Shown here in pieces: positions 9,681-58,948 of a DNA stretch of 64,000 nt; position 1 is the stretch's first letter, and each line of letters opens with the position of its first letter. Source of the DNA: Picocystis sp. L7 (Eukaryota > Chlorophyta > Picocystophyceae > Picocystales > Picocystaceae); contig QXJR01000005.1 of NCBI GenBank assembly GCA_020975725.1, positions 992,001-1,056,000 of the forward strand, written 5' to 3'. A program made the position numbers and the translations under genes. The notes under the pieces were generated by a model. The model was not told the origin of the DNA. It searched no databases and saw nothing but the letters and a program-made list of their open reading frames with translations.

Positions 9681-10364
9681 TCAGGCCGGTTTCCACTCCG
9701 GCTCTCTTAGGTTGGGCCAGTCACCGCGCGCTCCCAATCTGACGTACAGGGATTTTTTCTTCGGTAGCTCGTCGTCTTTTTCGAGGAGCGTATTCAATCT
9801 TTGGAGCACCTCGTCCGCCACTGCCTTGCCCGTCTCCGCTTCGGACACGTTCGGATCCCGTCCGACCACCACGTGCAGTTCCGCCATTCCATACGCGTCT
9901 CTTTGCGGAAGGTTTCGATCGTCGCCGTCGTAGTCCAGCCAGATGGTGTAGGCTCCGAAGAGGAATCTCCAGAAGTCTCCTCTTGCTGCGGCTCCACCTC
10001 CTCCCATGGTTCCGACTGCGCACCTTGCGTTGAAGGCCACTTCTTCCAGGAGCAGGATCTCCGTTCGCACGTCTCGTTCCCACGCATCGCCTTCCGTGTC
10101 CTTCTTCTCCTTCGACGTTGTCTTTCCGATGTTCTGGATCAGTTCGGGTGTTTGTATGGGCACGTATTCCAACTGCTTGGCCAATTGTTGGGCCAAGGCC
10201 ACGTTTCCCGTGGTGCAGTCGCCCAGGACCACCACGTTGCAACCTTTGAGTCTGGTGGCACATCGTTGGCCCAGGGACGGTGGAGGTGCGGTGTCGTTCC
10301 TTGTTCGTGGTGGGTCTCGTTTCTTGCCGAACCCACGTGACGTGGTGCATACGCACGTGTGCAT
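9681..10364 (-). CDS. Shikimate-kinase-like plastid protein, probably not a kinase
   Basis: About 227 residues from ATG 10364. A basic N-terminal stretch looks like a transit peptide. The core begins LKGCNVVVLGDCTTGN, in the place where shikimate kinases have the ATP-binding P-loop, then AQQLAKQLEYVPI. Later comes AVGTMGGGGAAARGDFWRFL followed by TIWLDYD, matching the glycine-rich GGG and WLD segments of the shikimate kinase fold. The P-loop lysine is absent (sequence GDCTTGN), so ATP-dependent phosphorylation of shikimate is unlikely. It resembles the plant SKL1/SKL2 group of non-catalytic paralogues; which one is unclear. The MULE insertion lies only about 160 bp upstream of its start. The start codon is uncertain. 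Confidence 0.75.
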   Translation of the reverse strand: MHTCVCTTSRGFGKKRDPPRTRNDTAPPPSLGQRCATRLKGCNVVVLGDCTTGNVALAQQLAKQLEYVPIQTPELIQNIGKTTSKEKKDTEGDAWERDVRTEILLLEEVAFNARCAVGTMGGGGAAARGDFWRFLFGAYTIWLDYDGDDRNLPQRDAYGMAELHVVVGRDPNVSEAETGKAVADEVLQRLNTLLEKDDELPKKKSLYVRLGARGDWPNLREPEWKPA

Positions 10365-10511
10365 CCCACCTGGACGAACGAACGAACAAACGGACGGATC
10401 CTTCGCGCCTCTTCCCCCCCAACCAGATCCGACCGTTGATCTGGGAGGGGTAGAGATGGGACGATCCACCCCCCCCACCTCAGACACACGCCATCTCGGA
10501 TGGTGTGGGGG

Positions 10512-10522
10512 GGGGGTCGGAT
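10512..10522. repeat. 11-bp target site duplication, left copy
   Basis: GGGGGTCGGAT directly abuts the left end of the MULE; the same 11 bases abut its right end at 26794-26804. MULE duplications are typically 8-11 bp, so the length fits. Confidence 0.88.
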
Positions 10523-11183
10523 GGTTGCGACTGAATTTTGGCCCCCCCCTCGACTGAATTTTCACCCCCCCCCCAGATGCACCCTCGTTTGGGAAGATCA
10601 CACCCTTGTCCCACGAGTTAAGTCGAAGGGGGACTCCGATCGATCCCCGCGGGAATGGAAGGGATCGAAACAGAAGGGAGAGGTCCAACCCATAGGACTT
10701 CGGGTCGATTGGGAATGGACCGGGTTCGACGTACCCATCGAAACCAAGGGAAAAAGGACCAAGACCCGAATCACAGCCCCAGATCCAGACGAAGAAAAAA
10801 GACCGACGCATCGGAACGGATCGGAACGCGACGCGGCGTTCGTCGCGGGCAGAGGACGCGCAGCAGGTCAAGACGCCGCAGACGAAGAAGGAAGAGCACC
10901 TGGATGGGCAAGACGCGTCAAGCCATGCGGAAAGGACGCGGGAAAACGAGTGTGGGAAAACGTGGGAGCGTGCGAATGCACGGCACATCTGTGGCTCTGC
11001 CATCGATGGGCCCTGCACTCGCACCCAACTCGACTGGGTTGGACACCCCTGGGTACCTCGTCACGGTAGGGGAGGGGGCGAAAAGGGGGCGAACACCAAC
11101 GTGGGGGGAGGACGACGAAGACACACCAAAGCGACTGCAACGACGGGACGGATCGAACGTGACGAGGACAGGACGGATCGAAC
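10523..11183. repeat. Left terminal inverted repeat of the MULE
   Basis: About 661 bp. The outer part contains the word CGACTGAATTTT twice, separated by a C run, followed by a second C run. The inner end stops at ggacggatcgaac (11183), after which homology with the right arm ceases. Long open frames on both strands inside the arm reflect its GC richness and are not taken as genes. Confidence 0.88.
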
Positions 11184-11293
11184 GTGAGAGGAAGGCTGTG
11201 AATGCTAGGATATTTGGAACCACCCATAGAGTGAAGGAGAATGAACAATACACTTTACAGTCGTAGGTATTCGTAGCACTAAGTGATGGACAA

Positions 11294-13420
11294 TCAAGTT
11301 CCTTGGAAGTTATGTTCTAGTATCCCTTCTTTGAAGCGCTTCTTGCGTTGGAGGTTGGCTGCCTCTCTTGCTTTTTGCTTCCTGGTACGCTCTTGCTCAT
11401 AAGTCAGTTTTAAACGATCGAATTTGGAATGCTTCAGCAGTCTTGCGTTGATTGGAATCTGAAGCTCATTGTTGTGGACTCTTCGAGCTAGGGAATGCTT
11501 GCAAACACCTTTATCTTGAAATGTGTAACAAGTACAAGTTGTACCAAGCATCACCCAAGCACTTGTGCGTTCAAAGAACTTTTGTAGTGTTTCATTAGGA
11601 TGAGGCAACAGTCCTTTCTCACAATAGCTGCTTGCCTCTTCAAACAACAACTTGTGCATTTGTAAGTCCATCTCTTCCACCAATTCTTTGCTTGCATCTA
11701 ATGAGTGGATCATCAATTCCTTGAATTGTGTAGATGTTCGCTGAGTCGCCAATTTCATGGTGGATTCTATTGTTCTTTTCGATGGGAACAATGCAAGGTC
11801 CTTCACTTCTTGTCGGAGAAACCAATCCGTGCACATCATGAATTGGTCTACTTCTTCCCATAATTTGAGTGGCAATGATGACTCATTTGTGTGACCACAC
11901 CGATACTCTCTTTCTTTTTCTCTCACCAAAGATGAGATTGCTTTCTTTAAAGGCACAACTGATTTATGGAGGTCGATTCTTCGTTGCGTACATCTGCTAG
12001 GCATGTGTACCTTCTTCAAGGTGTTGTTGTTACTTTCGTGACCTTGGTTGCTAACTGGATACCCTTCGGGTGCGTCACATCTAGCCCAATTCTTGAATGG
12101 CCCTCCATAAGTTGATTTCCACCACCTCATGAAGTCCTTGTGCTTCTCAAACTCTCTCTCAAACATTTCCATCAACACCTCTCGAACTTCTTTACTTGGT
12201 GAGCATGAGATTTGCCTCACTACTCCGGCAATGTAAACTCCGATGGCACTTGGTACTTGGTACTTCTTGAATGCTTGTTGCAAGTTGCCATCGACTCGAC
12301 TCAAGTGTGCATAACAATCTTGTTGATGCCATTTGCATCCCTTCGAATTGAAGAAAGAGTGCACACCTGAGTGGAGTCCTGAACCTGCATCTTTCAACAC
12401 ATAAACACCATCAAAAAAAGCACTCGCATCTTCTCCCAACAAGTCCCAAAATGAATTCAAGTGGAAGGTGGTTGTAATTGTACTTTCTCCCGGCACAATG
12501 CTATAAAGTATTGGGAGCCAATGCCCTTGTGGATTTGTGAAACCACTTGCCATTAAGATATGCTCATCCCCTGTAATTATCTTGAATGTCGCATCAATCG
12601 TAATTTGCCTAGTTCCACCCCTTTCCATGCATTCTTTCAACCATGTGACCATTAATGGGCATGAAAAACTGATCATCAATGTTTTCAACGTATCTTCATC
12701 TGAGAATTCGTCGACATTTTCATGATTGACCACAAAGCACTCGTCCTTGGCATAGCTTTTGTTTTCCATGTGGACATCCTCTTTGATGCTCTTGATAAAA
12801 TCTCCGAGCTTGTTGCTGCTTGCAAGTAGCGTCCGCTTGTAATTCAAAAAGTTCTTCACTTGCTTCTTTGTGGCTCCTTCCAACTCGAATCCCGAACTCT
12901 CTAGGTGGCAAATAATTTTCGGGACAATCAAATCGCTTTCCACAAATTTCAATAGCTCTAGTTTGATTTTACGAGAGAGACCGTCTTTTCTACCTTTTGG
13001 AATCTTCTCGATTTCATGATTGTGCGCACCTTTCGAGAGCAATACAAGGTTCCCTTGGGGTTCTCTTTGCATCAATGCTTGAGCTTTGCATCCGCATACA
13101 CACGATGCATTGCATACCCATCTTCCCAATTTGGCGACTCCATCCAAACCAAGGATTGGGTACTTGGCCTTTGCAGCACCCTTTGAGCTTTGCTTGACCC
13201 ACTTGGCCAAGCTATCCCCTTGCAACTTGGAAAGCTCTACTGTCAACCATTGTTGTTCCTGATCACAAAGGTGAAGGTGCCCCTGCCCATGGAAAATTGG
13301 ACACGTTGCCCTTCTCACCCACTCGGATGGCAACACTGTCTCCGGGGTTGGACATGCCACGGATGTATCCATCCTTCTGAAATCGCAATGCCCGGTCAAC
13401 ACTTCTAGCCCCTTTGTCAA
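11294..13420 (-). CDS. MULE transposase with N-terminal zinc finger and SWIM finger
   Basis: 708 residues, uninterrupted, between the two inverted repeats. Residues about 95-135 form a C/C/H-x-H finger (WVCNASCVCGCKAQ through GAHNHE) of FLYWCH/WRKY-GCM1 type, a likely end-binding domain. The MULE catalytic region follows: ITIDATFKI (first Asp, about residue 277), then YVLKDAGSGLHSGV (second Asp, about 340) and QQDCYAHLSR. Near residue 633 lies the SWIM finger CTCYTFQDKGVCKHSLARR (CxC...CxH). The C-terminus is lysine/arginine-rich. The length, complete domains and nearly identical inverted repeats suggest a potentially active autonomous element. No splice sites are needed. Confidence 0.88.
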   Translation of the reverse strand: MTKGLEVLTGHCDFRRMDTSVACPTPETVLPSEWVRRATCPIFHGQGHLHLCDQEQQWLTVELSKLQGDSLAKWVKQSSKGAAKAKYPILGLDGVAKLGRWVCNASCVCGCKAQALMQREPQGNLVLLSKGAHNHEIEKIPKGRKDGLSRKIKLELLKFVESDLIVPKIICHLESSGFELEGATKKQVKNFLNYKRTLLASSNKLGDFIKSIKEDVHMENKSYAKDECFVVNHENVDEFSDEDTLKTLMISFSCPLMVTWLKECMERGGTRQITIDATFKIITGDEHILMASGFTNPQGHWLPILYSIVPGESTITTTFHLNSFWDLLGEDASAFFDGVYVLKDAGSGLHSGVHSFFNSKGCKWHQQDCYAHLSRVDGNLQQAFKKYQVPSAIGVYIAGVVRQISCSPSKEVREVLMEMFEREFEKHKDFMRWWKSTYGGPFKNWARCDAPEGYPVSNQGHESNNNTLKKVHMPSRCTQRRIDLHKSVVPLKKAISSLVREKEREYRCGHTNESSLPLKLWEEVDQFMMCTDWFLRQEVKDLALFPSKRTIESTMKLATQRTSTQFKELMIHSLDASKELVEEMDLQMHKLLFEEASSYCEKGLLPHPNETLQKFFERTSAWVMLGTTCTCYTFQDKGVCKHSLARRVHNNELQIPINARLLKHSKFDRLKLTYEQERTRKQKAREAANLQRKKRFKEGILEHNFQGT

Positions 13421-13641
13421 AATGGAAGAGCCCCGAAATCAACCTGTCGACCCCCCTATGCAAACTCGCGACCTTGCTCGTACAGCAACCGTGGCGACTT
13501 GGTTTGTACGACCCACTTCAGGACCCCCGTTTTGAACAACCTTTTTGGCGGGAAAGAATCGCTGCCGATGCAGGTACCCACGATGTACTTTGACTCGACG
13601 ACTCCTTCGGACAGTTGCGCTACCTTACCCAGAGTCGGCTA

Positions 13642-14256
13642 GTTCGATCCGTCCTGTCCTCGTCACGTTCGATCCGTCCCGTCGTTGCAGTCGCTTTGGT
13701 GTGTCTTCGTCGTCCTCCCCCCACGTTGGTGTTCGCCCCCTTTTCGCCCCCTCCCCTACCGTGACGAGGTACCCAGGGGTGTCCAACCCAGTCGAGTTGG
13801 GTGCGAGTGCAGGGCCCATCGATGGCAGAGCCACAGATGTGCCGTGCATTCGCACGCTCCCACGTTTTCCCACACTCGTTTTCCCGCGTCCTTTCCGCAT
13901 GGCTTGACGCGTCTTGCCCATCCAGGTGCTCTTCCTTCTTCGTCTGCGGCGTCTTGACCTGCTGCGCGTCCTCTGCCCGCGACGAACGCCGCGTCGCGTT
14001 CCGATCCGTTCCGATGCGTCGGTCTTTTTTCTTCGTCTGGATCTGGGGCTGTGATTCGGGTCTTGGTCCTTTTTCCCTTGGTTTCGATGGGTACGTCGAA
14101 CCCGGTCCATTCCCAATCGACCCGAAGTCCTATGGGTTGGACCTCTCCCTTCTGTTTCGATCCCTTCCATTCCCGCGGGGATCGATCGGAGTCCCCCTTC
14201 GACTTAACTCGAGGGACAAGGGTGTGATCTTCCCAAACGAGGGTGCATCTGGGGGG
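13642..14256. repeat. Right inverted repeat of the MULE, inner part
   Basis: Inverted copy of 10571-11183, differing at a handful of positions. It is interrupted at a run of G residues by the composite insertion that starts at 14257. Confidence 0.88.
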
Positions 14257-15041
14257 CACCCCTGTGCCACTTTTTTTGGTGGGCTGTGGGGGTACTTCTG
14301 CGTTTCCCACCGCCTTGGCCGGGGACGGCCGATCCAGGCTCAGAGTCTTCGATCCAAGTTGTTCTACGTTTTACGGTGCATCTTTTCGATCGATGACACA
14401 TGTCCCGAAATGATCTTCCCTGCACGCCTCGGAGCCTTCCCGTGTGGGCAGGCGCGTGGGTCCGTTGGGGTCCCATCTACTAGCGGTCGACGAGTTCGAC
14501 TTCAAACCTCTGTATCTTCGCAATGACGTGTTGGATTGACTTGTAAGTGCTCTCGTTCGAAAGCTCTTGTTGCGTTCTTTTGAATGGTGTCATTGGCATG
14601 CTCTGAAACGGCCTGTGCGCAATTTTAGAGACCAAAATAGGCATGCACCTCGAACAAGGTCCGCCTGACCGGCGCAAAGGGCAGATTTGGATCACATCTC
14701 CCCAACCACGCCCGGGAAGGGGGCGAAACAAGTCCTCAAAGAAAGAACGGAAGCGGTTTCACGGACGAGAGAAGAGAAGCGCACTCAATCGGCGTGATGG
14801 GCGTCCTCCGACGCATTCCCATCTGTGGTCCCAAACAGCCCAAATTGGCCTGGGTTTCAAAAGTCGCGAGAGTGAACCCGCACGAGTTCGATGTCAGGGG
14901 CGTGAATCCTGCACGCGAGACCCACACCACCGGAAAGAGCATCGAAAATCATGCTGAGGGAGGCCAAGCACGTGCGGAATGGACCACGAGGCGGCACGTG
15001 ACCCTCTCGGACTCACACGCCCAAAAAGTGGCATAGGGGTG
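14257..15041. mobile_element. 785-bp non-autonomous inverted-repeat element, copy A
   Basis: Ends are imperfect inverted repeats: CACCCCTGTGCCACTTTTT at the left, and at the right the complement of CACCCCTATGCCACTTTTT. No protein family is recognisable in its short frames. It appears identical to copy B. Left flank is the G run of the MULE repeat; right flank is GGTAAAAC. Confidence 0.78.
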
Positions 15042-15363
15042 GGTAAAACTGGGAGGGGTATTCAACCGGCGCACGTCATCGATCGCCACGTACGAACGAC
15101 GGGGAATCAGATCTTGATATTCCGATGGAAGCAGGCCCGGTGCATGAGGAACACGTGAAGGAAAGGCCGAAGGGCAGTTCCTCGTAGAAGGACAGGGTTA
15201 GCCTCGAATCCCCTATCAGGGGTGCCTCTGCCTGTGAAAGAGGGGTGTTTTTAGGAGGGTACAGAGGGACAGGAGAGGGGGCGATCACCACGTCCAGCAC
15301 ACCAATCGAAAGAGGAACGACGAAACTCTCTGTGGTACGAGTGAGGTATCACGGATTGCGGCG
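15042..15363. other. Leader region of the Tc1/mariner transposase
   Basis: About 320 bp between copy A and the transposase start; presumed promoter and leader. It begins GGTAA, and the matching inner edge of copy B is preceded by TTACC, a 5-bp inversion that may mark the ends of the inner unit. Confidence 0.4.
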
Positions 15364-15964
15364 ATGGTTGCGCGAGGCAAGGAAACACCCACACTCGCCA
15401 TGAAGCGGGAGGCGGCCAGAAAAGCCACCCAAGTGGTGTTCGAGATGTTGCATCAAAATGTGACAGCCACAGCCGAGGTCATGAAACGGTCACCCACCAC
15501 AATACGAGCATGGGTGGCGACGGTGCCCAAAATCTCAAAGCCCAAGCGAGAGAGGCATAGCGTGGGCTACGCCACGGAGTACGAGGCATGGTTGGACAAA
15601 TTCGTCCGTGAGGCGGCCGTGAAAGGGCAGCCCACCTCTTGCGCGGATATCCAAACCGCTTGGCACGCCCAATTTGGCAAGAAGATATCCTTGAGAACCC
15701 TCCATCGAATCACCAAGGACGTGGGCATCCGAGCCCGTAGGCAAAAGCTAGTGCAAAGGTTGACGTTCTCCCACAAGGAAAAGAGGTTGGCTTTTGCACT
15801 CGAGCACCTGGCCGATGACTTTTCGAGGTGGATGTTCACGGACGCCCACCAAATCTATCTTGGAGTGGCGAAGCATAAAGGAGCTTCCACCACCATGGTA
15901 CCTCGTGGGGTTTCCCCCACCGTGGAATACACGAAGGACCCACCGCGAATCAAAGTGTATGGTG
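15364..15964 (+). pseudogene. Tc1/mariner-type transposase, N-terminal part (split by Ty3 element)
   Basis: Starts at ATG 15364. About 200 residues: a paired-like double helix-turn-helix region (REAARKATQVVFEMLHQ, then SPTTIRAWVATVPK, and later ISLRTLHRITKDVGI) followed by the first catalytic aspartate in RWMFTDAHQIYLG. The frame is cut after KVYG by the 5' LTR of the Ty3 element. The other half begins at 24858 and the four bases GGTG are duplicated on both sides. Apart from this insertion the coding sequence looks undamaged, so the loss of function is recent. Confidence 0.85.
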
Positions 15965-16729
15965 TGTTGCGCCCAGCCCTCTCGAGACACCTGTCTTGCC
16001 GAGGTTGTCCTTCGACGATGAGGAATATGCACTCAATCGTGAGGCTTTTGAGAGGTTCTCAATTATATTCGGGCCATTCACTTGGGACTTGTTTGCCTCG
16101 CCAAACAATACCCAATGTCCGGCCTTCTTTACACGGGAGACCAATGCTCTCGCCCAAGAATGGGCTAGTCTTGGCAACCTATGGGCACACCCACCCTGTT
16201 GCCTAATTGACTCCGTGATAAGCAAGCTGGAGGCCGAACCTAGAGCCCTTGTGACCATGATCACTCCGCATTGGCCAAAGGCTCCCTGGTTCCCTCGCTT
16301 GCAGCATCTCGCTACCTACCAGGAGGTACTAGGGAGGCATGAGGGAATATTCTCGGATGCCCAAGGAAGGCCCTTGCCTTCCCCTCACTGGGACGTCCTC
16401 CTTAGCCATGTCCCTAGGCGGATGCAGGGCCAGGACTAACCCGAATAGGGACCGGTTTGTCCCCCTTTCTAATAAGGGCTCTGTGGCCGATGAACCGGAT
16501 AAATACGTGGCTTAGCCACGGGCGGATTCCCCAATGGAGTTAAGATGTAATATTAATTGCGGCGGAGGGGAACGAAAAACAACAACAACGTTCCTCAACG
16601 TTCCGCCCAACGGTCTCGAGCACCGCGGCGACACGAACGCACGAGCGAACGAGCGCGAACGCACGCCGACGCCACCACCCTCGTCGTCTTCGCGCCGCAG
16701 GAAAAGGAAGTGGGCGCGCAAGCGCCACA
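15965..16729 (+). repeat. 5' LTR of the Ty3/gypsy element
   Basis: 765 bp, TGTTGCGCCC at the left, GCGCCACA at the right. It contains the coding end of the polyprotein family (15996-16439 frame), a short non-coding stretch, then the first codons of the polyprotein (from 16557). Within the non-coding stretch are a TATA-like ATAAATA at about 16499-16505 and, next to it, a small perfect hairpin CGTGGC-TTA-GCCACG at 16506-16520, a plausible promoter/leader region. Confidence 0.93.
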
Positions 16730-19700
16730 CCGTTCAACGAGTTTCCGCCCGCGAGTGGCGGCGAAGACGATGGCGAAGAAAAAAGGAAAGAGCGAGGGAC
16801 GTGTCGGCATCGCCGACGGCCAACGTCCCCTCGCCGCTCCTGCGGTGGTGGCTGTCGGCAATGCCGACGCCGAGCGATCTCGCGCGCGCCCGGAGAGAGG
16901 CGCCGTGCCTCCACGAACCGCTCGCGAGGGTTTCGTGGAGGAGGCGAACGAAAAAGAGCGAGAAATGGCTCCGAAAGCCACGCTCGCCGCTCCCACCTCC
17001 CAGCAGAAGAAGCCTCATGCTTCTGGAGGTGGTCGAGAGGCTAACGAAACCGTTCGCACCCCCACGGCCTTGGCCATGGCGTCTCCGGACGACGGTGCGC
17101 TCGAGGGTTTCGAAACCCTCGAGCACCGTGGGAAGAAGGCCAAAAGATCGGCTGCGAAAGCCGATCTGGCCTCCTCGGACGCACGGAAACTGCGCCGTGA
17201 CTCCGAGGCTACTGTTCGACCCGTCGCACGCGCCGATCGGCCCGTCGGTCGCACCGATCGTGCCGATCATGCGCGCTCCATCGCGCGCGCGCGCGGCGAC
17301 GTTGATCGAACGATCCGATTGGCTGATGCCCCTCATCCTGGCTCGCCATTGGCCGAAGCAGGATCTGGGAGCTCGCTCCAGGCAGACGCCCCTGTTGGGG
17401 GCTCGCCGTTGGCTGGATCCCCTGTTGGGGCAGCCCCATTGGCTACCGATCCCGGCAAGCCCCGAGCCAGGGCAAACCGAGCGAGAGAGGCTCTGCCCCC
17501 GGCCGAGGGATCAGGGACCAAGTCCATGGATGAGAGTGAGGATGAGAGCCTAAGGCCCACCTACCTCGAGAATCTTCTCTCCGACGAAGGGGAGGCCCGA
17601 GCCAAGCAAGGTCCTCTGAAGGACTTGCAGGATCCACACGTGGAGGAGACGCTCCGCTACGTGAATCGGCCTCTACCCGTTTGGATCATGGAGTGGGGAG
17701 CCGACCCACGTCGACTCACCGACGACGAGCTTCAAGCCGTCAAGGAGTTGAAAAACTCCTACTCCCGCGAGTGTCGTTTGCTCGCCCGGAGAGCAGCTAC
17801 TGCTACCTCCGAAGAGAAGAAACACTCCATCCAGAGGTCTCGCACCCACATGATGCAAGACCTCGCCCGACTCGAAAAGCTTTGTGAACACGAGCTCGCC
17901 TACCGTGAGGTGGCCATCGAGAAAGAGCGGGAACGCATTGAGCTTGAGCGGCAACGTGAGATTGCGGGCTTTGTAAGAGACCGCAGCGAGAGCTTGCGTA
18001 GCATGGCCGCGCTCTCTCCAGCCGAGGCTCATAAGCTATTCAACAGTGCGATGGACTTGTTCGACTTCCTACGAGAGTCGCAACCGAAAGGGTCCTTGAC
18101 TCAGCTGGCTCGATCGGCATTCCAAGAATCCGCGCTCGATCTTTTGGTAGATCCTCTCCATGAGGAGAGCCAAGGACCACGCGACAAGTTCATTGAACGT
18201 GCCTTGGTTCGTGCTGGAGTGGTGGAGGAGCCGCACGAGATGCGCCCCCTTACGGCGACCGCCCTTGATCCCGAAAGGATCACGCGCGCCACACTCCCCT
18301 TGCCTCCGACCTTTGACGGTACGAAACTCGACCGCCATTCCTTGAGGGATTGGCTTCAATCGGTCCGAGACTTCACCTCCGGTCATTCGGACAAGGAAGA
18401 AGCGCAAGTTGCGCTTGCCGCACGCTACCTCATAGGGAGCGCACAAAGGTTCTATAAATTGGCCACTCAAGCCCATCCGCCAACTACTTGGAAACAATTT
18501 TCAAGTGTGTTGCGACGACACTACTACCCTGACGATGTCGGATGGGAGTGTGTCCTTGAACTCGCCCGTGGCTACCAACGCCAAGGCGAGAGTGCGGAGG
18601 ACTTCTACTTGCGCATGCGCAAGGAAGTTGAAGGGGCCATGGAATCCACCGATCCATTCCTCCGTGCCTTGCGCACCCCGGATGGCCAAAGGAGGTTCTG
18701 GGAGCAATTCTTCTTGATTATGTTTCGAGCCAAACTCCGACCACAGTTGGGGAGGCTCCTCGACAATCATATCCGTCACGCTCAGAGAGTGGGACAGGAG
18801 ATTGTCAATGGGGAACAACTTCTCCGAGAGGTGAAACATTTCGAAGGGCAACTCCCCTCCGAGCCCCAAGGGCATCAGGGAGGTGGTAAAGGCAAAGGAA
18901 AATCTCCTCTCATGCCACCCCTCACAAAGGGTCCCACCTATGCGCGAATGGCAGGGTCTGGAAGCGGCCAACCTCGTTACGCTCCGTCCCCGGCTCCCCA
19001 AGGGTTGCCACAGGAGGCCATGGTGCAAATCCCAGCCTCGGCATTGACCTTCGGGCAGCTCCAAGCCGCCCAAGGTTGGACAAGGCCCCAAGGAGCGCCT
19101 CCTCAAGCTCCGCTGGCGCCGCATCAGCGAGCTTTCAAGCCCGGCGGCAAGAAGAAAACCCGCCGAGGCACCTCCGCACAAAAAGGTAGGTTGTGGAGCA
19201 GCGAAGTTTCCGAGGAGACCCACGAGGCCCTCGACAACTCGAACCTGATGACTGACGGTGAGTTGCTCACTATGTCTGTGCCAAGGCAAAGGAAAAGGAC
19301 GCATGTAAGTCCCCCTTGCCGTGCGACATATCGTGAAGCACCAAAGTGTGCACTATGTAATAGGACTTTGGATAATTGTGCTTGTGAAAACCGCTATCCT
19401 TGCCCTCCTCCATTGCACACTTCGGTCCCGGTGGAAACTCCCAAGGTGGACGCACCCCCAGAGTTCCCACTAAGTCCGGGAGAGTTTCACTCTCCCCTTC
19501 ACTCGACTCCGTTGAGCGCGAACCTCCCGTCTACCATCGGTACGCTATGTGAGTTTAGCTCGGGACTATGCACAAGCATGGTCGTGATGCTTTCCATAGC
19601 AGGGTTATCGGCAAAAGCCTTTGTCGATACGGGTGCTACCCACAACTTCATAAGCTGTCGCTTCCACGATCGTGTGTGCCAGGCCGACCCAAGTGGTCGT

Positions 19701-22700
19701 ACATCCACCCCCAAGCGAGAAAATCTGACGTACCGCTTAGGCGTTGGTGAGACGTTGCACAAGGCACCGGTCGTGAACTTGACCTTCACCATCGACAAGG
19801 AGAAGGTCGAGAGGCCTTTTGCGGTGTGTCCCCTCAATACTTATGACGTGGTGTTGGGGATGGACTTCCTGGTCTCGTTCCACGCGAGCTTAGAGTTCCC
19901 AAGGAACGTTCTGACGTTTCGCCATCAAGGGAGAAAGCATGAGCTTCGCGGCGATTCGAACTTCGCCTCGAAGCATGGGATGGATGCATTCTGCTCTATG
20001 CAAGAAGCCGCCCAAATCCTACGTTCCAGCCGCAAGGCTCGTGAAGGTAGCCTTTTCGTGCTCATCCAACGTCTACCCGACTTGGAACATGAGGAGGACG
20101 ATCTCGGAAAAAGGATAGCTAGCCTTACTCTCTCCGAAGATCACTCTCTCACCTCCCAAGGCAAGAAACGGCTCGACAAGCTCCTCCATAAATATGCATC
20201 GGTCTTCCGAGGCAAAGAGGAAAGCTTTGCCTTGCCTCCCGAACGAGTGTCGGGAGAGGTGTGTCGCATACCCTTGGACGTCGCAAAAGACGGTCCCAAA
20301 AGTCGGCCACCTATCCGTCTCTCCCCGGAGAAGACCAAGGCATGTCGAGAGCTCATCGACCAGTTACTCAAAGACGGCAAGATGGCGCATTCGCCCGGAT
20401 CGCCATTTGGAGCCCCGGTACTCCTCATACCGAAGAAGGATGGGCGATACCGTATTGTCTTTGATTACCGCATGCTGAACAACCTCACGATCAAGGACAA
20501 ATATCCTCTTCCTTTGATCGATGACTTGCTCCTAGACTTGAGCACCTCGAAGTTCTTCTCGTCCTTTGACGTGAAAGACGGGTTTTACAATATGCTTGTG
20601 GCCCCCGAGGATCAATACAAAACAGCATGCGTGACGCCGTTTGGTCAATTCGTTTGGCGTGTCATGCCGATGGGCCTGGCAAACGCCCCCTCTATCTTCC
20701 AGCGCATGATGAACCGCATCGTGTCGCCCTTGACGAACACCAAGGCGTACATGGATGATATCCTCATCCACTCTGGGTCAGAGGCTGATCACTTGGATCA
20801 CCTCGAGGCTTTCTTCCAACGCTGCAAGGCTGAGCATATCGTGCTCGCCAAGGAGAAGACGGCGCTCTTTAAGAAAGCCCTCGACTACGCCGGATTCCAT
20901 ATTGGCGATGGCCGAGTGATGATGCAAAAGCGTCTCGTGGAGAAAATTGAGAACTTTCCCCGGCCAACTAGCATCAAGGAGAATCAAAGCTTCTTAGGCT
21001 TGTGCAATTACTACTCCTCCTTCATTAAGGACTTCCCCACTCTTGCTGCTCCTCTTTCGGACATCAATAGAAAGGCGTTTAAAGGAGACTTCGTTGGCTC
21101 CTGGACTGAGGTTCAAGAGGACGCGTTCCAGCGCCTCAAGGCTGCTCTAGTTCAAGAGCCCGTCCTCGTCCAATACGATCCGAACAGAGAGACGCGCGTA
21201 GAGACGGATGCTAGTAAGATCGCTACCGGCGCGATCCTTTCTCAACTACATGAGGATGGCAAGTGGCATCCGGTTGCTTACTATGGGCGAAAATTCAATG
21301 ATGCCCAACGCAACTACTCCACAGCTGAGCAAGAGACTCTTGCTATTTTGCAAAGTCTCGTCAAGTGGAAGCATCTTCTGCAAGGACGCTCTTTCACTGT
21401 CTTAACCGACAACACTGCGTCCAAATACTTGCAAACGAAGAATGCTGATCAACTCTCCTCTCGGGAGATCCGCTGGCTAGACGCCTTGGCTGAGTTTACC
21501 CCTTTCGAGGTCCAGTACCGTCAAGGCGTTGCCAACCCTGGAGCGGACGCTCTCAGTCGCACCGATTGGGACAGGGGCCAAGTCTTTCGTGTCCTCCATG
21601 TTGGGCCACCCGCGGAAGACTTGATTCCCTCCTTGGAAGAGATCTTGTTGATCGAGCCTATGCTCTCCCTCGATCTAGCGGTCATTGGTACCTTTCGATC
21701 GAAAGCTGCTCGCGAACGTTGGATGCTGCAATATGATCGGGCACGCCTTAAGGCCCCCGTTCGATGGCGTACAAGCCGTCCCCTCCGCTTTGAGACAACA
21801 TCCCTCGCGGAGGTAGCCAACCGCAAGCGGCTCCCGCAGGCTCACGTAGTGCTCCTCGCTGATGACAAGCACCTTGACCTTCCCGCTTGCGACCGACTCC
21901 TTAGTAGGTTGCCTGCCTCCACCCATGTGATTCATTCGGCCACGTATAATGGAACGTGCGCCCGTGCTACCAAGTCCTATAGGCTTGCGTCCGGTCTCAC
22001 CGTGCGCACCACGTTGCAAGTCAACCCAGGTACTGATCTCAGGCTGATCACCTTAGCAGACCTCCTCCGGCGGTCGATGCCTTTGCTCACCATCCCAGCA
22101 CTCGTTGAACCGCCTCCCGGGCCAGCTCTTCGAGCTATGGGTGGTTCCCTTGAGATTCCATCGGTTGACCCCCAGGAGGAAGATTTGTATACATTGGTGC
22201 AACGAGCAGGTGAGAAAGACAAAGCTTATCAGGCTCTTGTAGCTTCACCACCGACGAAGCACGAAGTTCGTGACAACCTCGTGTGGCGCATCGATCCCGA
22301 GACGGATCGTGTTTGCCTGGTGGTGCCGAATGATGTTGCCGTACGACAACGACTTGTGGACCGTGTCCACGCGGATGCCCACTTTGGCGCTCAACGCACC
22401 TATGAGCAATGCCGACAACATTTTGTTTGGCAAGGTATGAAGTCGTACATTATCGACTTTGTCCGTACTTGTCCTCGTTGCCAGCTCCTCAAGCCGAGCA
22501 ATCGACCCGCGAAGCATCTCGTCCACATGCAAGAGATCTTCCCCTACCCTTTCCACACGATTGCGGTAGACGAAGTTGTCGGGCTTCCCGCCACTTCGAG
22601 AGGTCACAACGCGGTACTAACCGTCACATGCCGGTTTTCCAAGTACGCTCTCTACTTCCCGATGCACACTGATTGGACAACGCACGACGTTGCCAAGGTG

Positions 22701-24563
22701 CTCATGGACCGAGTAATCCATCAGTTCGGAAGTCCGCGAGTTGTCCTCACCGACAACGGGCCCCGATTTCGCGAGCTCTTTGATCAATTCCTGATCGAGC
22801 TCGGGGCCAAGCATAAAAGCGGCGCGCCTTACCATAGCCAGACACAAGGAGGAGTGGAGGTGCAGCACCGCACCCTTTTATCCACCCTTCGGGCATTGGC
22901 AACATCACGGCCAGATGTAGAGTGGGACGAGCTGCTTCAAACAGCGTCCTTCTCCTACAACACATCGGTGCATAGAGTCACTGGCTACTCTCCTCATTAC
23001 GTTCTCTTCGGTACAAACGCCAGTTTGCCGTGGACATATTCCCTCCTAAGAGAGAATGCAGACCCTGCGTGCAAGCGACTCCATTCGCTGTTTGACGCTC
23101 GCCGAGAGCTTTATGCTCAAGTGCAAAAACGACACGCCCTCTATCAAAAACAAGTTGAAGATAGATTGAACCGCCAAAGGCAGGTTCGACGCTTTCGCGT
23201 CGGGGACAAAGTCAAACTGCAACGCGGTCTGAAGTCCTCCAGGGACAAAGGAAAGCTCGAGAGCTACTTTGTAGGGCCGTACACCATTGGGGAGGTGTTA
23301 CCAAAGGGAGCTTACCGCTTGGTCCTACCCGACGGCACTCGACATTCCGCCACAGTCAATATCGAACGACTGCATCCCTGGCATGAGAGCGACCATTCAA
23401 AGTTCCCCCATCGCGAACTTACTCCTGAACCTCAAACGGTTCCTCTCCCAAATGGATCAGAGGAAACTCGTTTCCAGGTAGAGCGCTTCTACATACGTGA
23501 TTGGACGACTTTTCCACCTAGGTACTATGTCCAATTTGCTTGTAGCGCCGATGCCCCTCTTCACGAACATCGCGGGTTCGTAGAGGAAACGTCGGATCTC
23601 ATCGACCACGTTTGTGAGATCGAGGAACTCCTCGGGCATTTCCCCGAGCAAGGCATCACCGCACGTAACAAGAGTCGCGTGTCTCGCTACAAGTCCAAAT
23701 TTTATCACCAGAAGAGGCCCATCCTAAAGGATACGTGGCCGTACGCTCTGCCATACACTAGCCTAAGGAAACCGCGCTTTGCGAAACCGCCAAGTACGAA
23801 CTTGGTTGGGCAAGTCGTGCAAGCAAGGTTCTTGCTCGAGCTCATGGACGGCTCAACTCGCCTAGAGTTTTGGACTGGCCTTGTGGAACGCTTTCGAAAA
23901 GCGGCGAAATCTTCTCCCGCTGCTTACGTCATCCGGTGGACGGACGGGACTACTTCCTCCTACCGTCCCGATGACGCACACACGATCCTATTTGATCCTG
24001 TGGCGGCCGTGTACGGCCAAGCTTCCCTCGTCTCGCCAGAGCCACTCGACGATCGGGCTGAGTTGCGCTTAATGGTGGTCCGGGAGGGTGTTGCGCCCAG
24101 CCCTCTCGAGACACCTGTCTTGCCGAGGTTGTCCTTCGACGATGAGGAATATGCACTCAATCGTGAGGCTTTTGAGAGGTTCTCAATTATATTCGGGCCA
24201 TTCACTTGGGACTTGTTTGCCTCGCCAAACAATACCCAATGTCCGGCCTTCTTTACACGGGAGACCAATGCTCTCGCCCAAGAATGGGCTAGTCTTGGCA
24301 ACCTATGGGCACACCCACCCTGTTGCCTAATTGACTCCGTGATAAGCAAGCTGGAGGCCGAACCTAGAGCCCTTGTGACCATGATCACTCCGCATTGGCC
24401 AAAGGCTCCCTGGTTCCCTCGCTTGCAGCATCTCGCTACCTACCAGGAGGTACTAGGGAGGCATGAGGGAATATTCTCGGATGCCCAAGGAAGGCCCTTG
24501 CCTTCCCCTCACTGGGACGTCCTCCTTAGCCATGTCCCTAGGCGGATGCAGGGCCAGGACTAA
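16557..24563 (+). CDS. Ty3/gypsy Gag-Pol polyprotein with LTR-encoded C-terminal domain
   Basis: Single frame of 2,668 codons. Residues 1-57 are encoded inside the 5' LTR. A long basic, low-complexity region precedes a Gag-like domain (about 580-770). A cysteine cluster CALCNRTLDNCAC lies near 940. Protease: FVDTGATHNF (about 1025) and VVLGMDFLV. RT: IVFDYRMLNN, KYPLPLIDD and the YMDD box (about 1398). RNase H: ETDASKIATGAIL and TVLTDN. Integrase: HHCC finger (HADAHFG to CPRCQLLK, about 1937-1980), DDE core (AVDEV, LTDNGPRF, GVEVQH), and a GPY/F-type segment (VGPYTIGEVLPKGAYRL, about 2260). The last about 150 residues (DLFASPNNTQCPAFF, WAHPPCCLI, PHWPKAPWFPRL) lie in the 3' LTR. The start codon is assumed to be the ATG- or near-start in the LTR. 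Confidence 0.88.
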   Translation: MRRRGTKNNNNVPQRSAQRSRAPRRHERTSERARTHADATTLVVFAPQEKEVGAQAPHRSTSFRPRVAAKTMAKKKGKSEGRVGIADGQRPLAAPAVVAVGNADAERSRARPERGAVPPRTAREGFVEEANEKEREMAPKATLAAPTSQQKKPHASGGGREANETVRTPTALAMASPDDGALEGFETLEHRGKKAKRSAAKADLASSDARKLRRDSEATVRPVARADRPVGRTDRADHARSIARARGDVDRTIRLADAPHPGSPLAEAGSGSSLQADAPVGGSPLAGSPVGAAPLATDPGKPRARANRAREALPPAEGSGTKSMDESEDESLRPTYLENLLSDEGEARAKQGPLKDLQDPHVEETLRYVNRPLPVWIMEWGADPRRLTDDELQAVKELKNSYSRECRLLARRAATATSEEKKHSIQRSRTHMMQDLARLEKLCEHELAYREVAIEKERERIELERQREIAGFVRDRSESLRSMAALSPAEAHKLFNSAMDLFDFLRESQPKGSLTQLARSAFQESALDLLVDPLHEESQGPRDKFIERALVRAGVVEEPHEMRPLTATALDPERITRATLPLPPTFDGTKLDRHSLRDWLQSVRDFTSGHSDKEEAQVALAARYLIGSAQRFYKLATQAHPPTTWKQFSSVLRRHYYPDDVGWECVLELARGYQRQGESAEDFYLRMRKEVEGAMESTDPFLRALRTPDGQRRFWEQFFLIMFRAKLRPQLGRLLDNHIRHAQRVGQEIVNGEQLLREVKHFEGQLPSEPQGHQGGGKGKGKSPLMPPLTKGPTYARMAGSGSGQPRYAPSPAPQGLPQEAMVQIPASALTFGQLQAAQGWTRPQGAPPQAPLAPHQRAFKPGGKKKTRRGTSAQKGRLWSSEVSEETHEALDNSNLMTDGELLTMSVPRQRKRTHVSPPCRATYREAPKCALCNRTLDNCACENRYPCPPPLHTSVPVETPKVDAPPEFPLSPGEFHSPLHSTPLSANLPSTIGTLCEFSSGLCTSMVVMLSIAGLSAKAFVDTGATHNFISCRFHDRVCQADPSGRTSTPKRENLTYRLGVGETLHKAPVVNLTFTIDKEKVERPFAVCPLNTYDVVLGMDFLVSFHASLEFPRNVLTFRHQGRKHELRGDSNFASKHGMDAFCSMQEAAQILRSSRKAREGSLFVLIQRLPDLEHEEDDLGKRIASLTLSEDHSLTSQGKKRLDKLLHKYASVFRGKEESFALPPERVSGEVCRIPLDVAKDGPKSRPPIRLSPEKTKACRELIDQLLKDGKMAHSPGSPFGAPVLLIPKKDGRYRIVFDYRMLNNLTIKDKYPLPLIDDLLLDLSTSKFFSSFDVKDGFYNMLVAPEDQYKTACVTPFGQFVWRVMPMGLANAPSIFQRMMNRIVSPLTNTKAYMDDILIHSGSEADHLDHLEAFFQRCKAEHIVLAKEKTALFKKALDYAGFHIGDGRVMMQKRLVEKIENFPRPTSIKENQSFLGLCNYYSSFIKDFPTLAAPLSDINRKAFKGDFVGSWTEVQEDAFQRLKAALVQEPVLVQYDPNRETRVETDASKIATGAILSQLHEDGKWHPVAYYGRKFNDAQRNYSTAEQETLAILQSLVKWKHLLQGRSFTVLTDNTASKYLQTKNADQLSSREIRWLDALAEFTPFEVQYRQGVANPGADALSRTDWDRGQVFRVLHVGPPAEDLIPSLEEILLIEPMLSLDLAVIGTFRSKAARERWMLQYDRARLKAPVRWRTSRPLRFETTSLAEVANRKRLPQAHVVLLADDKHLDLPACDRLLSRLPASTHVIHSATYNGTCARATKSYRLASGLTVRTTLQVNPGTDLRLITLADLLRRSMPLLTIPALVEPPPGPALRAMGGSLEIPSVDPQEEDLYTLVQRAGEKDKAYQALVASPPTKHEVRDNLVWRIDPETDRVCLVVPNDVAVRQRLVDRVHADAHFGAQRTYEQCRQHFVWQGMKSYIIDFVRTCPRCQLLKPSNRPAKHLVHMQEIFPYPFHTIAVDEVVGLPATSRGHNAVLTVTCRFSKYALYFPMHTDWTTHDVAKVLMDRVIHQFGSPRVVLTDNGPRFRELFDQFLIELGAKHKSGAPYHSQTQGGVEVQHRTLLSTLRALATSRPDVEWDELLQTASFSYNTSVHRVTGYSPHYVLFGTNASLPWTYSLLRENADPACKRLHSLFDARRELYAQVQKRHALYQKQVEDRLNRQRQVRRFRVGDKVKLQRGLKSSRDKGKLESYFVGPYTIGEVLPKGAYRLVLPDGTRHSATVNIERLHPWHESDHSKFPHRELTPEPQTVPLPNGSEETRFQVERFYIRDWTTFPPRYYVQFACSADAPLHEHRGFVEETSDLIDHVCEIEELLGHFPEQGITARNKSRVSRYKSKFYHQKRPILKDTWPYALPYTSLRKPRFAKPPSTNLVGQVVQARFLLELMDGSTRLEFWTGLVERFRKAAKSSPAAYVIRWTDGTTSSYRPDDAHTILFDPVAAVYGQASLVSPEPLDDRAELRLMVVREGVAPSPLETPVLPRLSFDDEEYALNREAFERFSIIFGPFTWDLFASPNNTQCPAFFTRETNALAQEWASLGNLWAHPPCCLIDSVISKLEAEPRALVTMITPHWPKAPWFPRLQHLATYQEVLGRHEGIFSDAQGRPLPSPHWDVLLSHVPRRMQGQD

Positions 24564-24853
24564 CCCGAATAGGGACCGGTTTGTCCCCCTTTCTAATAAG
24601 GGCTCTGTGGCCGATGAACCGGATAAATACGTGGCTTAGCCACGGGCGGATTCCCCAATGGAGTTAAGATGTAATATTAATTGCGGCGGAGGGGAACGAA
24701 AAACAACAACAACGTTCCTCAACGTTCCGCCCAACGGTCTCGAGCACCGCGGCGACACGAACGCACGAGCGAACGAGCGCGAACGCACGCCGACGCCACC
24801 ACCCTCGTCGTCTTCGCGCCGCAGGAAAAGGAAGTGGGCGCGCAAGCGCCACA
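24089..24853 (+). repeat. 3' LTR of the Ty3/gypsy element
   Basis: Same 765-bp sequence as the 5' LTR. It is preceded by a G-rich run (about 24076-24088), a possible polypurine-like primer tract. The polyprotein stop lies inside it at 24563. Confidence 0.93.
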
Positions 24854-24857
24854 GGTG

Positions 24858-25360
24858 GGATCACGTTGCATGGGTTCACCCGGCTTCTACTTGTCACGGG
24901 CACCACAGGAAGGAAGAGCCGGTACATGGATGGCACCAAGAGGCGAGCCAAAGGTGTTGGAAGCGAGGAATATAGAAAAGACGTGCTCCCTTGGCTTTTC
25001 CATGAGGGGAAACGGATTTTCAAAAAGAGGAAGTGGACGTTCCAACAAGACGGTGACGGAGCTCATCGAAGCAAGGACACATTGGAGGTTCTAGGCCAAA
25101 TGAGTTTGCGTGAGAACGTTAGATTGGTCCTCGACTGGCCCCCTCTTAGTCCCGATCTCAGTCCGATAGAGAATGCATGGGCTTTGTTGGATGGGAAGCT
25201 GGCCACCATGAAGCCTACCACCCTTGAGGGGCTCGTTGAGGCAGCCAAAGCGGCTTGGTTCGAGCTCTCACAGGCCGGTATGGGCAAGGCCCTCTTGGAA
25301 AGTATGGCACGTCGACTTCAGGAGGTCATACAATCCAAGGGTGGACGAACAAAGTACTAG
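24858..25360 (+). pseudogene. Tc1/mariner-type transposase, C-terminal part
   Basis: Continues the transposase reading frame directly after the Ty3 element and its GGTG duplication. It begins GITLHGFTRLLLVTG, then the second catalytic aspartate in KWTFQQDGDGAHRSKD and the third acidic residue in WPPLSPDLSPIENAW. Thirty-nine residues separate the second Asp from the Glu, a DD39E spacing that differs from the DD34E of classical Tc1 and the DD39D of plant mariner-like elements. Together the two parts would encode about 367 residues, the normal family length. Confidence 0.85.
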
Positions 25361-25959
25361 AGGGAACGAGAAGTGGGGATGTTTAGATCCAGCCGAAATG
25401 TGGATATTTTTTACTAATATTATAACACAGCACCCAGTCTTTCCGCCATTCCCCATTGACATCATGCATGGCCGTGAAACTTTGTCCAGCTTGTACAAAC
25501 ATCTATTACAGCAATGATACAAAGTTTGAGACGATTTCAAGCCAAAATGGGTCGGTGGAGACCAATGTTTGGTCCTGCCGGACTCATGGAATATGTAGGA
25601 CAGCCCCACTAGCGGACAAGTCTGATGGTCTCAAGCGCTGATCTGGCCGTTTTACGCCCTGATTTTTTGCAGAGGGTGTACAAGAATGATTAAAAATATG
25701 CTTACAAAATTACAGCATCAAAAGTGATGTACGTTGCGTTCTACGTGGGTATGTGTCGATTCAGGTTATGGGGCCAATTTACTGGTTTCGGGGTCCATTT
25801 TCAGGGTCGACACCCAAGGGGCTACAGGCACATGTACGACTTCTTTGCAAACGAAATTCCGTCATACTACTACTAGGAGCTCATTATCGATGTGTACACA
25901 ATATCAGGAGCATTCGAACGGTAATCCAACTAGGAAGGCCTTTGTTGTACCCTCTTACC
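25361..25959. other. Non-coding tail of the inner transposon unit
   Basis: About 600 bp between the transposase stop and copy B. AT-richer than the flanks. No gene, RNA or further repeat recognised. Confidence 0.5.
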
Positions 25960-26744
25960 CACCCCTGTGCCACTTTTTTTGGTGGGCTGTGGGGGTACTT
26001 CTGCGTTTCCCACCGCCTTGGCCGGGGACGGCCGATCCAGGCTCAGAGTCTTCGATCCAAGTTGTTCTACGTTTTACGGTGCATCTTTTCGATCGATGAC
26101 ACATGTCCCGAAATGATCTTCCCTGCACGCCTCGGAGCCTTCCCGTGTGGGCAGGCGCGTGGGTCCGTTGGGGTCCCATCTACTAGCGGTCGACGAGTTC
26201 GACTTCAAACCTCTGTATCTTCGCAATGACGTGTTGGATTGACTTGTAAGTGCTCTCGTTCGAAAGCTCTTGTTGCGTTCTTTTGAATGGTGTCATTGGC
26301 ATGCTCTGAAACGGCCTGTGCGCAATTTTAGAGACCAAAATAGGCATGCACCTCGAACAAGGTCCGCCTGACCGGCGCAAAGGGCAGATTTGGATCACAT
26401 CTCCCCAACCACGCCCGGGAAGGGGGCGAAACAAGTCCTCAAAGAAAGAACGGAAGCGGTTTCACGGACGAGAGAAGAGAAGCGCACTCAATCGGCGTGA
26501 TGGGCGTCCTCCGACGCATTCCCATCTGTGGTCCCAAACAGCCCAAATTGGCCTGGGTTTCAAAAGTCGCGAGAGTGAACCCGCACGAGTTCGATGTCAG
26601 GGGCGTGAATCCTGCACGCGAGACCCACACCACCGGAAAGAGCATCGAAAATCATGCTGAGGGAGGCCAAGCACGTGCGGAATGGACCACGAGGCGGCAC
26701 GTGACCCTCTCGGACTCACACGCCCAAAAAGTGGCATAGGGGTG
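25960..26744. mobile_element. 785-bp non-autonomous inverted-repeat element, copy B
   Basis: Same length, orientation and (by eye) sequence as copy A. Left flank TTACC, right flank the G run of the MULE right arm. Confidence 0.78.
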
Positions 26745-26793
26745 GGGGGGGTGAAAATTCAGTCGAGGGGGGGGCCAAAATTCAGTCGCAACC
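26745..26793. repeat. Right inverted repeat of the MULE, outermost part
   Basis: Inverted match of 10523-10571, ending CCAAAATTCAGTCGCAACC. It proves that the insertion at 14257 lies inside the MULE arm and not beyond it. Confidence 0.9.
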
Positions 26794-26804
26794 GGGGGTC
26801 GGAT
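26794..26804. repeat. 11-bp target site duplication, right copy
   Basis: GGGGGTCGGAT, identical to 10512-10522; continues into TGTCCCC, unlike the left flank. Confidence 0.88.
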
Positions 26805-27024
26805 GTCCCCACCACCCACCCCGGATCACGAGTGGACGACAAGGGGACCACCAGTACTCCCTCGCCTACGCCAATGCCCCCCCCACCCCACCCCTCGGTG
26901 TTCCCAGGGTCCGCGGGACGTACCCGTACGTCGCTCCTCTCCCGATTCGAACACCAACGGTGGTGGCCAAGGGACCACGAACCTACACCTTTCGACCCAG
27001 CTTGTCGAACACCGGATCCAGCAC

Positions 27025-27570
27025 ATGGGACCGCCTTCCAAAAGGAGGAAGGATTACGGCACCATGGCCTCGCGCAGAGAAAGGACGGATGGAGGAAAAA
27101 CCAAACCACCGATCAGCGAAACCGTACACAAGCGTTTCGTCTACTGCGTGCTGAGAACGATCGCCAACATGAGACCCGCAGAAGCAGCCGCAGCCATGAA
27201 CCTAAGGATGGGCGTCAACTTCGACCACAAAAACGCCGAAAAACAAAAGTGGACGGACAGGTACGAAGATGACGGGATCCTCGGACTGGTAGAAGACAGA
27301 AGGAGCAGCAACAACTACGTGATCAAACCCGACATGCAAGCGTTCATCAACGAACAGGCACACCGTGGACTCACCCCAAGAGAGATCCAGAACTCGCTCG
27401 AAATCAGACTGGTGGAAGTGGGACAGCAGTCGAGAAAAGTACCTTCGGTGAGCGCCATCAGAAAGAGCATCGGACGCCCACCCATGGAACCCATCCTTCC
27501 CATCGAAGGTGTGGAACACATCCCAAACCCCCTACCCATGGCACACGTCACCGAGCACCACATGCAGTGA
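27025..27570 (+). CDS. Helix-turn-helix protein, transposase-derived DNA-binding domain without catalytic core
   Basis: About 181 residues from ATG 27025. An N-terminal PPSKRRK could act as a nuclear signal. The body contains a double helix-turn-helix pattern like the N-terminal region of Tc1/IS630-type transposases: NMRPAEAAAAMNL, then KWTDRYEDDGILGLVEDRRS, then LTPREIQNSLEIRL and SVSAIRKSIGRPP. The frame ends shortly after, without a DDE domain, so it may be a domesticated DNA-binding factor or a remnant; a further 3' exon is possible. It lies about 220 bp right of the MULE and was divergent from the shikimate-kinase-like gene. Function unknown. Confidence 0.55.
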   Translation: MGPPSKRRKDYGTMASRRERTDGGKTKPPISETVHKRFVYCVLRTIANMRPAEAAAAMNLRMGVNFDHKNAEKQKWTDRYEDDGILGLVEDRRSSNNYVIKPDMQAFINEQAHRGLTPREIQNSLEIRLVEVGQQSRKVPSVSAIRKSIGRPPMEPILPIEGVEHIPNPLPMAHVTEHHMQ

Positions 27571-44132: not shown

Positions 44133-44812
44133 CGTCGCACCGACGTGGTGAAGCACCCGAATGTACGTCCCGTCCTGGGAAGGGGGGGATGGATCGATCG
44201 TGTTTGATACGGAGGGATGGATGTCTCCTTCATGGGACAGTGGGCCTTCCCACCACATTGGCAAGTTGGGTACTGGGTGTTTCGATCTCGGATCCGTTCG
44301 GATGGGGACACCTCCGACCGTACGAACAAGACACTAACCCTCCTCTCTGGGGAATCGGGAAGCCCTTCTTCCCCGTCCACGAATGGGAGGGGGAGGCCTT
44401 CCATCACGGTCCTCGTCGATGGATCGGTCGAATGAACGGAGACGCATCCGTGATTATCCGTCCCGAAAAGCAGGGATCCGTCGAGGATCCATCGCTGGAT
44501 TCGACCGCGGGAGGAGGTGAAGAGGAAGGTGAACGTGTCGATATTCTCGATCAAAGGTATCGATGAATCCTCGACGGATCCCTGCTTTTCGGGACAGAAA
44601 ATCACCAATGGGTCTCCTTTCACTCTACCGATCCATCGACGAGGACCGTGATGGAAGGCCTCCCCCCGTATTCGTTCCGATGGAAGGGCTCCCACCGAGG
44701 GGAAGGGAAGGGAGAAGAAGTTGTTTACGATCCGATTAAGTTCCAGGGAGGAGCAGGGGTTTGAAGGGACCAGCAGTGGTGGGAAGCCGTGAGACGTGCG
44801 CCGCCAAACACC
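44133..44812. promoter_or_regulatory. Intergenic region between divergent SUFD and RPS26
   Basis: About 680 bp holding two promoters and a long imperfect inverted repeat (see 44390-44667). Confidence 0.5.
44390..44667. repeat. Long imperfect inverted repeat (foldback), about 106-bp arms
   Basis: Left arm 44390-44494 starts GGGAGGCCTTCCATCACGGT; the right arm 44561-44667 is its inverted copy, ending accgtgatggaaggcctccc. Identity is about 85% by eye, including an exact block around CCCGAAAAGCAGGGATCCGT. The arms are separated by about 66 bp, and weaker similarity may extend another 30 bp outward. A transcript across it could form a long hairpin. No flanking duplication was evident. Confidence 0.8.
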
Positions 44813-58187: not shown

Positions 58188-58948
58188 TGTTGCGCCCAGC
58201 CCTCTCGAGACACCTGTCTTGCCGAGGTTGTCCTTCGACGATGAGGAATATGCACTCAATCGTGAGGCTTTTGAGAGGTTCTCAATTATATTCGGGCCAT
58301 TCACTTGGGACTTGTTTGCCTCGCCAAACAATGCCCAATGTCCGGCCTTCTTTACACGGGAGACCAATGCTCTCGCCCAAGAATGGGCTAGTCTTGGCAA
58401 CCTATGGGCACACCCACCTTGTTGCCTCATTGACTCCGTGATAGGCAAGTTGGAGGCCGAACCTAGAGCCCTTGTGACCATGATCACTCCGCATTGGCCA
58501 AAGGCTCCCTGGTTCCCTCGCTTGCAGCATCTCGCTACCTACCAGGAGGTACTAGGGAGGCATGAGGGAATATTCTCGGATGCCCAAGGAAGGCCCTTGC
58601 CTTCCCCTCACTGGGACGTCCTCCTTAGCCATGTCCCTAGGCGGATGCAGGGCCAGGACTAACCCGAATAGGGACCGGTTTGTCCCCCTTTCTAATAAGG
58701 GCTCTGTGGCCGATGAACCGGATAAATACGTGGCTTAGCCACGGGCGGATTCCCCAATGGAGTTAAGATGTAATATTAATTGCGGCGGAGGGGAACGAAA
58801 ACAACAACGTTCCTCAACGTTCCGCCCAACGGTCTCGAGCACCGCGGCGACACGAACGCACGAGCGAACGAGCGCGAAGGCACGCCGACGCCACCACCCT
58901 CGTCGTCTTCGCGCCACAGGAAAAGGAGGTGGGCGCGCAAACGCCACA
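58188..58948 (+). repeat. 5' LTR of the second Ty3/gypsy copy
   Basis: 761 bp, TGTTGCGCCC to ACGCCACA. Carries the same C-terminal-domain frame (58219-58662) as the other LTRs. Confidence 0.92.

Follow-up and report, generated by a model that had tools for sequence, protein, structure and literature searches.

Three nested insertions between two algal open reading frames, with a middle layer that may be a Tc1-related variant of the composite-like transposon layout

The window analysed here, a stretch of 64 kb of DNA, carries three insertions nested in one another between two open reading frames, and the locus raises the question of which element entered which, and what kind of element forms the middle layer. 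The two flanking frames are as follows.

Positions 9681-10364, minus strand: flanking ORF, shikimate-kinase-like (weak).
Positions 27025-27570, plus strand: ORF on the other flank, either a host gene or a remnant, with an HTH_32 match below threshold.

Before the insertions, the starts of these ORFs would have been separated by 378 bp (10365-10522 plus 26805-27024), in agreement with the spacing of about 380 bp given in a preliminary description of the locus. The same description spoke of a promoter between two host genes; the gap and the ORFs are present, and the promoter and host genes are suppositions, as the matches are weak in the shikimate-kinase-like ORF (Pfam SKI, E=0.074; AtSK2, E=5e-4) and the HTH_32 match of the other falls under its cut-off. 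The window also encodes a magnesium-protoporphyrin IX methyltransferase, SufBD, a histone deacetylase with ankyrin repeats and a GT64 glycosyltransferase, all in long uninterrupted frames, and these genes and their frames suggest an intron-poor photosynthetic eukaryote, presumably an alga; nested insertions of known kinds are ordinary in such a genome. The middle layer is possibly a novel variant of a recently described layout. Elsewhere in the window, minus-strand ORFs within 384-2830 resemble a protease (384-1202) and a gag protein (1760-2830) of another retroelement, with weak Pfam matches, and a MITE-like foldback of 297 bp (44379-44675), 78% self-complementary, adjoins the SufBD-like gene.

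The outermost layer is a MULE-type element, which comprises the following features.

Positions 10512-10522, plus strand: left target-site duplication of the MULE (GGGGGTCGGAT).
Positions 10523-11183, plus strand: left terminal inverted repeat of the MULE, 661 bp, unbroken.
Positions 11294-13372, minus strand: MULE-type transposase ORF, 692 aa, unbroken, with motifs and weak FLYWCH/SWIM matches.
Positions 13642-14256, minus strand: right terminal inverted repeat of the MULE, inner part, with 6 G of the split G-run at its end.
Positions 26745-26793, minus strand: right terminal inverted repeat of the MULE, outer part, opening with 7 G from the G-run that the insert divides.
Positions 26794-26804, plus strand: right target-site duplication of the MULE (GGGGGTCGGAT).

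An 11-bp direct repeat had been said to bracket this element, and exactly two copies of GGGGGTCGGAT, at 10512 and 26794, are found in the whole window (0.06 expected), with two or more copies in 1 of 100 shuffles of the sequence. The element is 3.8 kb long and its 661-bp inverted repeats differ by 1 mismatch over 615 aligned bases. The left arm pairs with 13642-14256 over 615 nt, the single mismatch lying at position 10613, and its outer 50 nt (10523-10572) pair with 26744-26793 with 0 mismatches. Thus, the right arm is split, by an insert of 12,488 bp (14257-26744), and the alignment of the left arm with both right-arm parts bears out the interruption of about 12.5 kb previously described. 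The transposase ORF contains IDATF, DCYAHL (C..H) and GHESNNN, which we take to be MULE transposase motifs. Since the 692-aa ORF has no match to the Pfam MULE model, the assignment rests on these motifs, the long arms and the 11-bp duplication, a length within the 9-11 bp of MULEs; the weak FLYWCH and SWIM matches are a further likeness, whereas the unmatched model and the interrupted right inverted repeat set this element apart from other MULEs. In the viral contig collection searched, neither relatives of this transposase nor the exact MULE end sequence were found.

The innermost layer is a Ty3/gypsy retrotransposon.

Positions 15961-15964, plus strand: left target-site duplication of the Ty3/gypsy element, GGTG.
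Positions 15965-16729, plus strand: 5' LTR of the Ty3/gypsy element, 765 bp, TGTTGC...CCACA.
Positions 16770-24563, plus strand: Ty3/gypsy polyprotein, 2597 aa in one frame, with protease, RT, RNase H and integrase.
Positions 24089-24853, plus strand: 3' LTR of the Ty3/gypsy element, with the same sequence as the 5' LTR.
Positions 24854-24857, plus strand: right target-site duplication of the Ty3/gypsy element, GGTG.

The LTRs with TG...CA ends, the 4-bp duplication and the order protease-RT-RNase H-integrase, with RT before integrase, are those of Ty3/gypsy elements; in contrast, the single frame overlaps the 3' LTR by 475 bp, and beside the 5' LTR there is no evident TGG primer-binding site. 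Relatives of the RT were not found in the viral contig collection searched. A second, partial copy begins at 58188 and runs past the window end at 64000; it is 98.7% identical to the nested copy over 5.8 kb, and its 5' LTR is 98.3% identical to the LTRs of the nested copy. The two 765-bp LTRs of the nested copy are 100% identical, and therefore this insertion is recent. The preliminary description had extended a recent origin to the whole stack; the Ty3/gypsy insertion is dated by its LTRs, while the identity of the MULE repeats and of the direct repeats in the middle layer is only suggestive of age, because in DNA transposons insertion does not reset the repeats, which may also become homogenised. 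The nesting itself gives the order of insertion, with the MULE followed by the middle element and then by the Ty3/gypsy element. This order and the MULE-type outer and Ty3/gypsy inner layers stand as first described, coordinates included, and the four levels originally counted come down to three insertions, the fourth being the host site.

In the preliminary description, the 12.5-kb layer was treated only as the carrier of a transposase gene, and the 787-bp direct repeats with inverted termini that bound it were omitted. The middle layer consists of the following parts.

Positions 14257-15041, plus strand: first LTDR, 785 bp, CACCCC...GGGGTG, with its own 19-bp TIR; shared sequence continues to 15043.
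Positions 15364-15964, plus strand: 5' part of the Tc1-type transposase gene, with HTH_Tnp_Tc3_2 and the first catalytic D; includes GGTG.
Positions 24858-25363, plus strand: 3' part of the Tc1-type transposase gene, with DDE_3, the second D and E (DD39E) and a C-terminal KY.
Positions 25960-26744, plus strand: second LTDR, identical to the first, with the same 19-bp TIR; shared sequence continues to 26746.

Self-comparison of the window showed that the direct repeats at both ends of the insert (14257-15043 and 25960-26746) are 100% identical. Each opens with CACCCCTGTGCCACTTTTT and closes with AAAAAGTGGCATAGGGGTG, an inverted pair of 19 bp matched at 18 of 19 positions (CACCCC...GGGGTG), and the anchored score of this pairing was 40, compared with 30 for the best of 2000 shuffles. 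Without the Ty3/gypsy element and the extra GGTG, the middle element would be about 3.6 kb long, in the order repeat, 2.0-kb internal region, repeat. When the Ty3/gypsy flanks were joined in silico with one GGTG, an open frame of 367 codons was obtained, in line with the earlier statement that a Ty3/gypsy element with GGTG splits a transposase gene. The encoded protein has an HTH_Tnp_Tc3_2 domain, IS630 matches, a DDE_3 match slightly under its cut-off, a match of its C-terminal part to Sleeping Beauty (5.4e-17) and the catalytic residues D160, D265 and E305, the last two separated by 39 residues. The DD39E spacing is absent from the families listed in two reports (PMC7386202, PMC8533490), and DD39E was used as a term in none of the papers that a literature search for it listed. 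No relatives of this transposase were present in the viral contig, genome contig or plasmid collections searched, the exact LTDR end sequence was absent from the viral contig and genome contig collections searched, and a single copy of the middle element was seen.

The target of the middle element is the G-run of the MULE arm, which has 10 G in the unbroken arm and, in the split arm, 6 G on the left of the insert and 7 on its right. If the ends of the element are CAC and GTG, these counts imply a duplication of 3 bp, GGG, around the whole unit, an estimate that presumes equal G-runs in both arms and whose length the homopolymer makes ambiguous. No TA is present at this outer target, the G10 run; instead, TA occurs 2 bp inside each LTDR (GTG-GGTAA and TTACC-CAC). 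The inner edges of the element are symmetric, with GGTAA (15042-15046) and TTACC (25955-25959) abutting the direct repeats. The ends of the internal region did not pair as TIRs, as 348 of 2000 shuffles reached their score and a local test was also negative; thus, the LTDR ends are the only detectable termini for the Tc1-type transposase. G-runs lie in or beside the target of both the MULE (10512-10522) and the middle element (14251-14256), and the window contains 13 runs of at least 8 G or C.

Herein, we propose that the middle element is a Tc1-related composite-like transposon, a reading to which we assign an even chance. A MULE would have entered the gap of about 380 bp between the two genes with an 11-bp duplication, the 3.6-kb composite-like transposon would then have entered the G10 run in the right TIR of the MULE with a GGG duplication, and the Ty3/gypsy element would finally have entered the Tc1-type transposase gene with a GGTG duplication. 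The Tc1-type transposase might act on the CACCCC...GGGGTG ends, the outermost pair moving the whole unit, and each LTDR might also be movable alone. Although the anatomy of the stack and the order of the insertions can be read directly from the nesting, we infer that the transposase and these ends belong together, and likewise the mode of movement. The absence of detectable Tc1 termini inside the internal region fits this reading; moreover, it is supported by LTDR ends that pair beyond chance, a 3-bp duplication enclosing the whole unit, a transposase frame that is open, with the catalytic D, D and E and Tc1-type domains, and the same layout documented for KolobokP (PMC9587614). The single copy, the target without TA, the CACTA-like ends and the ambiguous length of a duplication within a homopolymer argue against it, as does the TA 2 bp inside each LTDR, which looks as if the internal region had entered a TA.

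We regard the chief rival as unlikely, though still a serious contender. Here the 785-bp units would be two copies of an unrelated non-autonomous CACTA-like element with its transposase elsewhere, the outermost ends of the two units would have moved the intervening DNA as a macrotransposon, and the Tc1-type gene would be a passenger. A left and a right end are both present on each unit, the target is G-rich and without TA, and the TA on either side of the internal region would follow from the entry of a Tc1 element into a spacer between the units. However, Tc1 TIRs are not found at those edges, and it would have to be by coincidence that an intact transposase frame occupies most of the internal region. 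The same anatomy could have arisen in place, without transposition of the whole unit, if a circle comprising one unit and the internal region had recombined homologously into a solo 785-bp unit in the MULE arm; the direct orientation and complete identity of the two units would suit this route, which has been proposed for KolobokP (PMC9587614), but it requires an extra step, neither a solo unit nor a circle was observed, and we consider it improbable.

An interior flanked by long direct repeats of identical sequence is also reminiscent of a retrotransposon with LTRs, the interior of which would have been replaced by the Tc1-type element. We rejected this candidate, which is the least probable of all, since the 787-bp repeats end in CACCCC...GGGGTG rather than TG...CA and have 19-bp inverted termini, a polypurine tract is absent before the second repeat, and RT occurs only in the nested Ty3 element. 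Identical repeats bound all the layers, and repeats of 600-800 bp might have been misjoined during assembly; however, the two copies of the MULE duplication and the complementary pieces of its arms agree from one side of the insert to the other, and joining the Ty3 flanks yields an open frame; an artefact is very unlikely.

If the Tc1-related composite-like reading is correct, a Tc1-type enzyme would not need a TA target. A more specific version, in which the element represents a self-mobilising algal family of the Tc1/IS630 group with paired ends, TA-less insertion and a layout evolved independently of KolobokP, is put forward tentatively, as somewhat less probable than the composite-like reading itself. 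In such a family, the long direct repeats could jump alone or with the gene, and a second independent case of LTDR-INT-LTDR would allow the role of the direct repeats to be addressed.

The ends of CAC...GTG and the 3-bp duplication look more like those of CACTA-type elements. With the Tc1/mariner (IS630-Tc1-mariner) group, the middle element shares the transposase domains, the catalytic D, D and E and a frame that was intact before the Ty3 insertion; in contrast, it has no simple TIRs bracketing the gene, its inverted termini being those of the LTDRs, and no duplication of TA, the sequence typically duplicated by Tc1/mariner enzymes (PMC8533490, PMC7386202). Of the architectures described, the closest is that of the KolobokP composite-like transposons (Kojima and Bao 2022), in which LTDR-INT-LTDR is the layout, each LTDR has a TIR of 11-18 bp, a DDD/E transposase lies in the internal region, TSDs are 3-5 bp and autonomous elements are 4.0-4.7 kb long, an arrangement called unlike that of every other DNA transposon (PMC9587614). 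To date, this layout has been described mainly for KolobokP, an unrelated animal transposon. The middle element likewise has an internal region between long direct repeats, each with a short TIR (19 bp), a DDD/E transposase inside, a duplication of 3 bp within the KolobokP range, and a similar total length (3.6 kb without the Ty3 insert). However, its LTDRs are 785-787 bp rather than about 450 or about 660 bp, and it is an algal element of which one copy was seen, whereas KolobokP is found in animals. The downstream His-Me finger nuclease gene carried by most KolobokP families was not detected, no convincing ORF for it being present in the internal region. Because this accessory gene, the transposase superfamily (Tc1/IS630 versus Kolobok) and the terminal nucleotides (5'-CA...TG-3' versus 5'-RR...YY-3') all differ, the middle element is not a member of KolobokP, whose architecture it nevertheless resembles.
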